From Candidatus Pacearchaeota archaeon (lineage in GTDB: Archaea; Nanobdellota; Nanobdellia; Pacearchaeales; GW2011-AR1), in contig JAUYJY010000013.1 of NCBI GenBank assembly GCA_030699205.1, forward strand, positions 1 through 36,303: a stretch of DNA of 36,303 nt. Direction: 5' to 3'. The notes under the pieces were generated by a model, which searched no databases, was not told the origin of the DNA, and worked only from the letters and a program-made list of their open reading frames with translations. A program made the translations under genes and the position numbers. Positions 4,654-36,303 of the stretch are shown in pieces (position 1 is the first letter of the stretch; the number at the start of each line of letters is the position of its first letter).

Positions 4654-4746
4654 TATAGCAGAAGACAAAATATTTTGAACAGTTTTTTGTTCTTCCGCTA
4701 ATAGTCTGAGACAAATACATTTCAATTATAAATGTCTTAGACTATA
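4654..4746 (+). repeat. Dispersed paired-hairpin element, A+C form (93 bp)
   Basis: Same as the 2634 copy with AGTCTGAGACA and loop AT variant. Confidence 0.97.
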
Positions 4747-5446: not shown

Positions 5447-5539
5447 TATAGCAGAAGACAAAATATTTTGAACAGTTTTTTGTTCTTCCGCTAATAGTCT
5501 AAGACAAATACCTTTCAATTATAAATGTCTTAGACTATA
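5447..5539 (+). repeat. Dispersed paired-hairpin element, A+C form (93 bp)
   Basis: TATAGCAGAAGAC...GTTCTTCCGCTAATAGTCTAAGACA...TGTCTTAGACTATA. Confidence 0.97.
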
Positions 5540-7467: not shown

Positions 7468-7653
7468 TATAGTAGAAGACAAAATATAGATAATTCTGAT
7501 AATTGGAACACTATTTGTCCAGAATTCTCTATCTGTACAATTCTGAAAACAATTGTGCTAATCAACAGAATTGTCCATATTTTGAATAGTTTTTTGTTCT
7601 TCCGCTAATAGTCTAAGACAAATACAGTTCAATTATAAATGTCTTAGACTATA
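7468..7653 (+). repeat. Dispersed paired-hairpin element, A+B+C long form (186 bp)
   Basis: TATAGTAGAAGACAAAATA-TAGATAATTCTG...CAGAATTGTCCATA-TTTTGAATAG...GACTATA. Confidence 0.97.
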
Positions 7654-8837: not shown

Positions 8838-8930
8838 TATAGCAGAAGACAAAATATTTTGAACAGTTTTTTGTTCTTCCGCTAATAGTCTAAGACAAAT
8901 ACCTTTCAATTATAAATGTCTTAGACTATA
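8838..8930 (+). repeat. Dispersed paired-hairpin element, A+C form (93 bp)
   Basis: Near-identical to the 2634 copy. Confidence 0.97.
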
Positions 8931-9015: not shown

Positions 9016-9201
9016 TATAGTAGAAGACAAAATATAGATAATTCTGATAATTGGAACACTATTTGTCCAGAATTCTCTACCTGTACAATTCTGAAAACAA
9101 TTGTGCTAATCAACAGAATTGTCCATATTTTGAACAGTTTTTTGTTCTTCCGCTAATAGCCTAAGACAAATACCTTTCAATTATAAATGTCTTAGACTAT
9201 A
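9016..9201 (+). repeat. Dispersed paired-hairpin element, A+B+C long form (186 bp)
   Basis: Near-identical to the 7468 copy (TCTACCTG, AATAGCCTAAGACA variants). Confidence 0.97.
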
Positions 9202-9300: not shown

Positions 9301-9393
9301 TATAGCAGAAGACAAAATATTTTTAACAGTTTTTTGTTCTTCCGCTAATAGTCTAAGACAAATACCGTTCAATTATAAATGTCTTAGACTATA
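9301..9393 (+). repeat. Dispersed paired-hairpin element, A+C form (93 bp)
   Basis: Near-identical to the 2634 copy; loop variant CG. Confidence 0.97.
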
Positions 9394-10385: not shown

Positions 10386-10459
10386 TATACAGCAGAAGCA
10401 TTAAATAATCTTAAGCTTCCGCTACGTCAAGAACGCTGACAATTGCGTTCTTGATATAT
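10386..10459 (+). repeat. Diverged relative of the paired-hairpin element
   Basis: TATACAGCAGAAG...CTTCCGCTA keeps hairpin-1 ends of the main family; second hairpin TCAAGAACGC/GCGTTCTTGA is a perfect 10-bp stem of unrelated sequence. Confidence 0.65.
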
Positions 10460-11827: not shown

Positions 11828-11919
11828 TATAGCAGAAGACAAAATATTTTGAACAGTTTTTTGTTCTTCCGCTAATAGTCTAAGACAAATACGTTCAATT
11901 ATAAATGTCTTAGACTATA
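11828..11919 (+). repeat. Dispersed paired-hairpin element, A+C form (92 bp)
   Basis: As the 2634 copy but one nt shorter in the loop (AATACGTTCAATT). Confidence 0.97.
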
Positions 11920-11991: not shown

Positions 11992-13317
11992 ATGGAAAAA
12001 TTTAGAAATTTAGGGATTCCTGAAGAGATTTTGAAGGCAATAAAAGAAGCCAAGTTTGAAAAACCTAGTGAAATTCAGGAAAAGTCTATTCCCTTAATTT
12101 CTAAAGGACTTGATATTATTGGAGAGTCTGCAACTGGTTCGGGTAAAACCCTTGCTTTTGGTGTGGGGATAATTAATAAAATTGAAAGGGGAAAGGGAAT
12201 ACAGGCATTAATTTTAACACCTACGAGAGAACTTGCATTGCAAGTTTCAAGTTCATTGGAGTTTTTTTCTAAATATAAACCATTTGAGATTGTTACAATT
12301 TATGGGGGTGTTGGGATTGATAATCAGATTAAAAAACTTAAAACTGCAGAGGTTGTCGTCGGGACTCCTGGAAGAATTTTAGACCATTTACAAAGAAGGA
12401 CAATAGATTTTATGAATTTAAAGATTTTAGTCTTGGATGAAGCAGACAGAATGGTTGATATGGGTTTTGTTAGAGATGTTGAGAAAATAATTGGGCAATG
12501 TCCAATAAAAAGACAAACTCTGCTTTTTTCAGCAACTATTTCTTCAGAAACAGATTATATTGCAAAGAAATTTATGAAAAAACCTGTTGAAGTCCGGGCA
12601 GAGAGCCGTGTGGATGCAACAAAATTAACTCAAATTTATTATGATGTGGATAATAAAATAAAGTTTTCGGCGTTAGTTACATTATTAAAAAATGATAGGA
12701 CTGGTTTGGTGATGGTTTTCTGCAACACGAAAGCGAATACAGATTTTGTTGCAAAGAATTTGAAGTTTGCAGGAATTGATGCTCATGCGATTCACGGGGG
12801 ATTCTCGCAGGAAAAAAGAGAAAGGGCACTTAAAAGTTTTCACTCAAAATACGCCCACGTCTTGGTCTGCACGGACGTCGCAGCAAGAGGGTTGGATATT
12901 AAAAAAGTGTCACACGTTTATAATTATGACTTGCCTAAAGAACCAAACCAATATATTCACAGGGTTGGGAGAACTGCACGTGCGGGAGAAGAAGGGAAGG
13001 CAATTAGTTTAGTTTCAAGTAGGGACTATGATAATTTTGCCAATATTCTCAATAAACTTGGAATTAATATTATAAAAACCGAATTACCTAAAATAGACCG
13101 AATTAGGATTAGATGGATGGCGGAAAAAAAAGAGTTTAGGCGAGGTGGCTCTGGAGGAAGATTTGGAGAGCGTCAGAATGGGGGAAGTTCAGGAGGAAGA
13201 TTTGGAGAGCGTCAGAATGGGCGAAGTTCTGGAGGAAGTTCTGGAGGGAGTTACAGAAGGATGGGTTCAAATAATAAAAGCTCTGATAGAAGAGGTTCAG
13301 GGAATAGAAGAAGATGA
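11992..13317 (+). CDS. DEAD-box RNA helicase with Gly/Arg/Ser-rich C-terminal tail
   Basis: Q-motif, SATGSGKT, PTRELALQ, VLDEADRM, LLFSATI, HRVGRTARAG; tail GGRFGERQNGGSSGGRFGERQNGRSSGG. Confidence 0.95.
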   Translation: MEKFRNLGIPEEILKAIKEAKFEKPSEIQEKSIPLISKGLDIIGESATGSGKTLAFGVGIINKIERGKGIQALILTPTRELALQVSSSLEFFSKYKPFEIVTIYGGVGIDNQIKKLKTAEVVVGTPGRILDHLQRRTIDFMNLKILVLDEADRMVDMGFVRDVEKIIGQCPIKRQTLLFSATISSETDYIAKKFMKKPVEVRAESRVDATKLTQIYYDVDNKIKFSALVTLLKNDRTGLVMVFCNTKANTDFVAKNLKFAGIDAHAIHGGFSQEKRERALKSFHSKYAHVLVCTDVAARGLDIKKVSHVYNYDLPKEPNQYIHRVGRTARAGEEGKAISLVSSRDYDNFANILNKLGINIIKTELPKIDRIRIRWMAEKKEFRRGGSGGRFGERQNGGSSGGRFGERQNGRSSGGSSGGSYRRMGSNNKSSDRRGSGNRRR

Positions 13318-17436: not shown

Positions 17437-17529
17437 TATAGCAGAAGACAAAATATCTTGAACAGTTTTTTGTTCTTCCGCTAATAGTCTAAGACAAATA
17501 CCTTTCAATTATAAATGTCTTAGACTATA
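17437..17529 (+). repeat. Dispersed paired-hairpin element, A+C form (93 bp)
   Basis: As the 2634 copy (AATATCTTGAAC variant). Confidence 0.97.
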
Positions 17530-27356: not shown

Positions 27357-27506
27357 GGTCCCGTAGCTCAGCCTGGTCAGAGCACTGGACTCTTACTACA
27401 AGCTTTTCTAGAAGAAAACCTTCTAGGAATTCAAAAGACCAATTTAGTCAGTAAGCTGATGATAGGAGAGATCCAGGTGTCGGGGGTTCAAATCCCCTCG
27501 GGGCCA
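27357..27506 (+). tRNA. tRNA-Lys(CTT) with a 75-nt intron (27396-27470)
   Basis: Acceptor GGTCCCG/CGGGGCC, D-arm GCTC/GAGC, anticodon stem CTGGA/TCCAG with loop CTCTTA|A, T-arm GGGGGTTCAAATCCCC; BHB-like CTCT/GGAG helix with 3-nt bulges TA|C and AG|A. Confidence 0.9.
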
Positions 27507-27525
27507 TTTATACTTGGGGGATTTG
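27491..27525 (+). repeat. 35-bp direct repeat, copy 1 (tRNA 3' end plus flank)
   Basis: AATCCCCTCGGGGCCATTTATACTTGGGGGATTTG. Confidence 0.93.
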
Positions 27526-27581
27526 AACACTGCACGAACCTTCGGTTCGCTGGCCTTCGCTTCAAGAGGTGAAGCTTCAGG

Positions 27582-27616
27582 AATCCCCTCGGGGCCATTT
27601 ATACTTGAGGGATTTG
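27582..27616 (+). repeat. 35-bp direct repeat, copy 2
   Basis: AATCCCCTCGGGGCCATTTATACTTGAGGGATTTG; one mismatch to copy 1. Confidence 0.93.
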
Positions 27617-35147: not shown

Positions 35148-35567
35148 ATGGCAACGATAAATATGCAGACAATGAGGTATATTAATCTTTTAGATGATGT
35201 TGCGAGAGTTAAGGCGAGAAAGTGTTTTGTTTATAATAATGTCATCTACTTTGCTGTCCATCCAAGATTTCTTTCTAAGGCAATTGGCCAGGGAGGGAGA
35301 AATTTGAGAATAATCGGAGAGAGGTTGGGAAGAAGAGTTAGGATAATAAGGGATGTTTCTGCAAATCCTCGTGCGATTGAAAGCTTTATTGGTTCTATTG
35401 TTTCGCCTGTTGAATTTGTTTCTTTAGAGATTAAAGATGGTATTTTTATTTTAACTGCCGGCTCGAGGACAAGAGCTGCGAGCTTAATTGGAAGAAATAA
35501 AGTCAGGCTTGAAGAATTGAATAAAATCATAGAAGATTATTTTGGAAGAGGTCTGAGGATTATTTGA
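35148..35567 (+). CDS. nusA: NusA-like KH-domain transcription factor
   Basis: AIGQGGRNLRIIGERLGRRVRII and SLIGRNKVRLEELNKII; position after rpoA. Confidence 0.9.
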   Translation: MATINMQTMRYINLLDDVARVKARKCFVYNNVIYFAVHPRFLSKAIGQGGRNLRIIGERLGRRVRIIRDVSANPRAIESFIGSIVSPVEFVSLEIKDGIFILTAGSRTRAASLIGRNKVRLEELNKIIEDYFGRGLRII

Positions 35568-35624: not shown

Positions 35625-35901
35625 TATAGCAGAAGACAAAATATATAGCAGAAGACAAAATATTTTGAACAGTTTTTTGTTCTTCCGCTAATAGTCTAAG
35701 ACAAATACAGTTCAATTATAAATGTCTTAGACTATAGATAATTCTAATAATTGGAACACTATTTGTCCAGAATTCTCTATCTGTACAATTCTGAAAACAA
35801 TTGTGCTAATCAACAGAATTGTCCATATTTTGAACAGTTTTTTGTTCTTCCGCTAATAGTCTAAGACAAATACAGTTCAATTATAAATGTCTTAGACTAT
35901 A
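35625..35901 (+). repeat. Composite dispersed element, modules A-A-C-B-C (277 bp)
   Basis: Left-end unit TATAGCAGAAGACAAAATA duplicated at 35625 and 35644; C ends 35736; B begins TATAGATAATTC at 35733; second C ends 35901. Confidence 0.95.
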
Positions 35902-35965: not shown

Positions 35966-36303
35966 ATGGGTTTAATGAACGCAAAGAAATTTATTAAAAA
36001 TCGCAGAAAGTTTAGATGGAATGATAAAACTTTCAAGGCGAGAAAATTAAAGCTTAAAGAAAAATCAGATCCTCTTGGGAAATCGCATCAGGCAAAGGGA
36101 ATTGTTATTTCAAAGTTCCAAAAAGAAGCTGCACAGCCTAACTCGGCTATGAGAAAATGTTGCAAAGTTCAATTGGTTAAAAATGGACAACAGGTTGGAG
36201 TTTTTATCCCGGGTAATTTAGCACAGAAATTTGTTGATGAACATGATGAAGTTATTATTGAAAGAATTGGGGGGAAGCAAGGAAGATCTAAGGGAGATAT
36301 TAG
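35966..36303 (+). CDS. rps12: Ribosomal protein uS12 (archaeal S12/S23), truncated by window end
   Basis: Manual translation MGLMNAKKFIKNRRKFRWNDKTFKARKLKLKEKSDPLGKSHQAKGIVISKFQKEAAQPNSAMRKCCKVQLVKNGQQVGVFIPG... Confidence 0.95.
   Translation, partial: MGLMNAKKFIKNRRKFRWNDKTFKARKLKLKEKSDPLGKSHQAKGIVISKFQKEAAQPNSAMRKCCKVQLVKNGQQVGVFIPGNLAQKFVDEHDEVIIERIGGKQGRSKGDI

Follow-up and report, generated by a model that had tools for sequence, protein, structure and literature searches.

A composite repeat in a Candidatus Pacearchaeota archaeon very probably arose when one small non-autonomous mobile element inserted at a TA of another

The window analyzed here is the whole of a 36,303-nt stretch, contig C59. 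The archaeal assembly to which it belongs comprises 68 contigs and 0.93 Mb, with an estimated completeness of ~86%. At 35625–35901 it carries a composite repeat, flanked by an ORF without a Pfam match (35148–35567) and a ribosomal protein S12/S23 gene that starts at 35966, with RNA polymerase Rpb1-type domains directly upstream of the interval. Five units follow each other in the composite: A (35625–35643), A (35644–35662), C (35663–35736), B (35735–35827), and C (35828–35901). The A-A-C-B-C order that a sequence-only reading had given for this locus is thus correct. The same units recur along the window as AC copies at 2634–2726, 4654–4746, 5447–5539, 8838–8930, 9301–9393, 11828–11919 (with a 1-bp deletion), and 17437–17529; as ABC copies, in which B lies at the loop TA of AC, at 7468–7653 and 9016–9201, where segmentation agreed with the A-B-C order read earlier; and as B plus C at 1–169, the remainder of which was lost at the contig start. 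All eleven of the eleven element clusters are on the plus strand; genes lie on both strands. The window also contains a 39-bp unit (TCTGGAGGAAGATTTGGAGAGCGTCAGAATGGGGGAAGT) repeated three times in tandem at 13150–13266, inside an ORF at 11992–13317. In the region 27357–27616, a tRNA gene match at 27357–27506 spans 150 bp for a 71-position model and thus probably contains an intron, and a 35-bp direct repeat (27491–27616; 97% identical, copies 91 bp apart) overlaps and follows this match.

The genome-wide count of A ends was 57 + 67 (~124) in 0.93 Mb, compared to 0 + 1 for a reversed control pattern, indicating that copies are far more numerous than expected by chance. Segmentation of 278 kb of stretches around copies, from which all tallies by type were taken, yielded 59 A-C, 14 full A-B-C, about three dozen cut ABC, 2 lone B, and 3 A-A-C-B-C copies. 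The cut ABC copies are mostly truncated at contig ends, and the ABC counts are therefore approximate. A and the initial portion of C base-pair into a hairpin (HP1), and the remainder of C forms a second hairpin (HP2; z-score −6 versus shuffles). Thus, A is not a unit by itself, and the earlier treatment of A and C as separate modules does not hold: A makes up the initial 19 bp of an AC element, split off where B lies between. The plan of AC is TA-[TAG...HP1...CTA]-A-[TAG...HP2...CTA]-TA, with 89 bp within the two TAs. Both AC (89 bp) and B (91 bp) are short and non-coding and have inverted repeats as ends, the generic features of MITEs. The identity of HP1 to the reverse complement of HP2 is 32/46 for AC, 31/45 for family F2, 30/46 for L171, and 31/49 for B; none of 2000 shuffles reproduced this likeness for AC or for two other families, and 1 of 2000 did for B. 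Complementarity between the HP1 and HP2 loops (9–10 bp) was significant in 3 of 18 sequences (the AC ‘TG’ haplotype, L169, and L171), and we dropped it as a general feature, as it was weak or absent in the other 15. No Rfam model matched over the elements, and no viral contigs carrying the AC core were found. Two AC copies are altered in HP2. At G000:C37:207–709 (L110) a ~405-bp insert breaks the loop; its ends are CTTGACTTCGCC/GGCGAACTCAAG, it contains TTTCAA repeatedly, and it apparently represents a further family of mobile elements. At about 965–1042 of G000:C33 (L108) the stem carries a short direct duplication (TTTCAATTATAATGTCTT repeated).

Among intact AC, ABC, and A-A-C-B-C copies with both flanks, TA lies directly outside the terminal TAG and CTA in 73 of 73, and the remaining flank positions carry at most ~0.4 bit. 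We found paralogous empty sites for four copies: C4:4108 (in contigs C39, C37, and C51, with 82, 82, and 80 bp aligned without gaps at 91–94% identity), C11:14984 (in six contigs; this copy sits within another hairpin-doublet element), window 9301 (in contigs C62, C21, C13, and C3, with 1–2 gaps), and window 2634 (in contig C6). Each empty site has a single TA, showing that insertion converts TA to TA-element-TA, an outcome that would look the same whether a 2-bp TA was duplicated or the element brought one TA along. The sequence-only reading had placed all junctions at TATA or TATAG. The B-to-C junction reads GTCCA-TA-TTTTG and the A-to-B junction of ABC reads AAAA-TA-TAGATAA, and what they have in common is the TA dinucleotide. 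When breakpoints were compared across the segmented copies they were indeed restricted, but to TA and not to TATAG.

B is a second, independent mobile element and not part of AC. Two lone copies exist, at C16:3271–3363 and C35:4576–4668, the second of which splits a methionine sulfoxide reductase A (msrA) gene: the frame that includes B stops at ...KKKIV*, and joining the C35 flanks less 93 bp restores the msrA frame, which ends ...LKKKIVTAIEKYTTYVKAEEYHQKYVMKTGRNVC*. When compared with solved MsrA, the joined protein gave an alignment that spans the junction (best E 1.4e-21); the query used differed from the DNA in its first five residues and lacked one E of LREEEKK, but matched the DNA in the junction region. 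Another 16 genomes of the order contain relatives of B, the full-length ones being 74–83% identical, and the four that we inspected are all standalone with TA on both sides. In the present genome, B is found on AC copies of many haplotypes, AC and ABC have C haplotypes in common, and diversity is lower in B than in the adjoining C (pi 0.008 vs 0.042); B thus seems to have arrived after AC diversified. Amplification of ABC from a single origin is disfavored by the C haplotypes common to AC and ABC.

Resolved into whole elements on the plus strand, the composite begins with the left part of an outer element (35625–35645; A, TATAGCAGAAGACAAAATA, plus TA), ahead of an inserted 89-bp AC (35646–35734; TAGCAG...GACTA), for which folding and covariation give two hairpins and which has TA on each side. 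B follows inside the outer AC (35735–35827; 91 bp, TAGATAATTC...GTCCA, plus TA), and the right part of the outer element (C, 35828–35901) ends in ...GACTA-TA. Removing the inner 89 bp with one TA leaves a 186-bp ABC with 3 mismatches compared to the copy at 7468, and removing B (93 bp) from ABC leaves a normal AC. The A-A pair is therefore the edge of a nested AC and not, as first read, a tandem duplication of A. We propose that a separate 91-bp B entered AC at the TA that opens the HP1 loop, yielding ABC, and that an 89-bp MITE-like AC would then have entered the TA between A and B of this older ABC, yielding TA-element-TA; an enzyme supplied in trans would recognize the hairpin ends and insert them at TA. 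Because one nested insertion into ABC yields A-A-C-B-C, neither template switching nor stepwise accretion is needed. The earlier proposal of non-random, site-restricted joining thus survives in part: every boundary is a TA, intact copies read TA-element-TA throughout, and the same TA of AC carries B in ~50 copies, but the units are the whole elements AC and B and the route is one nested insertion. The composite is real, and accretion of three modules is not what built it; we put the probability that small non-autonomous mobile elements inserted at TA, one within another, at roughly 88%.

The choice of site counts against this nested TA-insertion reading. ABC contains 21 TAs, and the three A-A-C-B-C copies use the same one, the HP1 loop start (AAAATA), with ~50 B copies at the matching TA in AC; free insertion at TA predicts less site specificity than this. 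Also against the reading are the searches for a mobilizing enzyme, which gave none with matching ends, the ambiguity of the TA duplication, and the non-significant orientation trend in other genomes. Either one preferred TA was hit repeatedly, or copies exchanged sequence by gene conversion. Exchange of this kind is also the basis of a rival account, in which the composite was assembled from AC and ABC copies by recombination or template switching, through gene conversion or slippage at TATA. The C haplotypes common to AC and ABC are consistent with it, as is the low diversity of B relative to C, which suggests that copies may exchange sequence, and the composite can be drawn as an unequal joining. 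Nonetheless, one normal AC insertion explains the A-A and C-B junctions exactly, with TA on each side, and single insertions elsewhere have the same junction; we consider recombination an improbable origin for A-A-C-B-C.

Still more improbable is an assembly artifact joining different repeat copies. Many contigs break off 141 bp into an ABC, a sign that the assembler has trouble with these copies, and in the composite the right half, from B to the outer C, has stretches in common with other ABC copies. Against an artifact, a piece of the left flank together with A, A, C, and the start of B fits in ~141 bp, and the A-A-C-B-C order occurs at two further loci (C30:8605–8881 and C13:1–255), so the arrangement is not unique and an assembly error is unlikely. 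The inner or outer C haplotypes differ among the three composites, which are thus not plain copies of each other, although conversion could blur this distinction.

The hairpin-doublet plan extends beyond AC and B. Other families of the same plan are present in this genome at C11:29114, C24:2420, C40:21055, and C13:404, and six stem pairs have changed on both sides across families, compared to 0 of 500 shuffles. A covariance model built solely from real copies detected the architecture, with different sequences, in at least 17 of the 190 genomes that represent the order; the richest of them gave ~20 or more matches, and the ends are mostly TATAG...CTATA; as 22 candidates were scored per genome, these counts are lower bounds. 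One AC relative was found in G188, a genome from the same family as that of the window. A weak match to the hairpin-doublet model at 10388–10456 of the window (ACAGCAGAAGCATTAAATAATCTTAAGCTTCCGCTA...) resembles the second family, at C24.

Orientation of the elements is strongly biased in this genome. Neighboring copies on a contig were concordant in 69 of 85 pairs (expected 42.2, SD 4.6), as were 31 of 40 neighbor pairs when only intact copies were counted, and net orientation per contig correlated with GC skew (rho 0.76, p 7e-8, 36 contigs). The skew is present in noncoding DNA too (+0.19 on the element strand). No link to gene direction was seen, with neighboring-gene arrangements of 20, 16, 15, and 10 over four types. 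The three IS200 genes have the same orientation as the elements on their contigs. In other genomes the orientation trend (17 of 28 loci, Wilcoxon p 0.08) was not significant. Because orientation tracks the G-rich strand, by convention the leading strand, these results suggest that insertion is coupled to replication, where replication direction is itself inferred from GC skew.

We weighted two routes of mobilization equally. One tentative possibility is a Y1-type HUH mechanism, in which a TnpA/RAYT-like enzyme would move REPIN-like doublets via the lagging-strand template and insert them 3′ of TA without true duplication. The orientation along GC skew is consistent with this route, as are the inverted hairpin doublets like those of REPINs (PMC3116915), an A·C mismatch conserved in HP1 of several families, a solo HP1 at C30:6241 and a solo HP2 at C55:9586 that resemble REP singlets, and the higher frequency of Y1 genes in architecture-bearing genomes (13 of 17 vs 58 of 173 others, p 9e-4). 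However, the REP-type GTAG foot is absent, and replication-oriented insertion is seen in other IS families (PMC5371812), weakening the strand bias as proof of a single-strand mechanism. DDE_3 and Y1 searches of this genome and 190 genomes of the order returned IS630 and IS200 elements, and none of the ends examined matched. We detected no Y1 gene with these hairpins on its flanks. The Y1 genes examined belong to IS200-type elements; for the three Y1 hits in G000, the ends that were read are IS200-type, and the resident IS200 copies have hairpins that differ from those of the elements.

The other route, held with the same tentativeness, is that of an IS630/Tc1-mariner-like DDE transposase. On this view the elements would be MITEs of the ordinary sort, whose terminal inverted repeats are palindromic and whose insertion duplicates a 2-bp TA target. 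TA on both sides of every intact copy and the terminal inverted repeats accord with this route; DDE_3 genes are enriched in architecture-bearing genomes (5 of 17 vs 5 of 173 others, p 6e-4); and the pneumococcal RUP offers a precedent, a 107-bp repeat with terminal inverted repeats like those of IS630-Spn1 (PMC3049150). The genome also harbors an IS630 element of 1080 bp (L140, G000:C46, about 1438–2517) with TA-flanked terminal inverted repeats (GAATCCGAACATTTT) and a transposase split over two ORFs. The repeats of this resident IS630 are unrelated to the AC and B ends, however, and DDE_3 genes occur in 10 of 190 genomes, compared to at least 17 with the architecture. Strong bias toward one replication strand would not be expected of IS630, which also counts against a DDE route. 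Both the Y1 and the DDE_3 enrichment may reflect mere mobile-element load, and at ~86% completeness an autonomous partner may be missing from the assembly.

Several known systems share features with these elements. REPINs likewise consist of two imperfect inverted hairpins, which may instead fold together into a single long one, and they too occur in many copies, with singlets, in families specific to one genome (PMC3116915). Unlike REPINs, the elements here have ~45-nt hairpins and TA-restricted insertion, a TAG/CTA foot (TATAG...CTATA in the AC family and most relatives) rather than GTAG/GTGG, and no linked RAYT gene that we could find. RUP of Streptococcus pneumoniae is similar in its ~100-bp length, terminal inverted repeats, target duplication, and more than 100 copies, and pneumococcal repeats insert into each other, as the nested elements do here (PMC3049150); RUP repeats resemble those of IS630-Spn1, whereas no matching IS was found here, and the likeness is one of features, with no sequence relation claimed. 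BOX of S. pneumoniae has a comparable A-(B)-C look with the middle unit present or absent (PMC3049150), but the middle unit here is an independent mobile element that also occurs alone and in other genomes. Members of the IS200/IS605 family and their derivatives also have hairpin ends, and their orientation follows replication (PMC6006769, PMC5371812), which the GC-skew correlation suggests for the elements of this genome; the elements differ in having TA on both sides, and no TnpA with these ends was found. We found no report of MITE-type elements in Pacearchaeota among open-licence papers. The elements are new families of a known, MITE/REPIN-like kind, with a strand and site preference that is unexplained.

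Such elements have been little described in tiny archaeal genomes, and here they break the short-read assembly, as many contigs end inside ABC. In prokaryotes, MITEs are usually associated with one of two kinds of machinery, DDE transposons that duplicate TA or HUH systems that act on single strands, and one class here shows marks of both. A bolder idea, which we regard as unlikely, is that an undescribed transposition system is widespread in Pacearchaeota-type archaea: it would insert hairpin doublets at TA in a replication-strand-specific manner, prefer the loop-start TA of another doublet and stack there, and rely on an enzyme that recognizes single-stranded hairpins, as for REPINs, but targets TA. 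Because empty sites, standalone copies, and nested copies coexist in one genome, the question of the mobilizing enzyme is testable.
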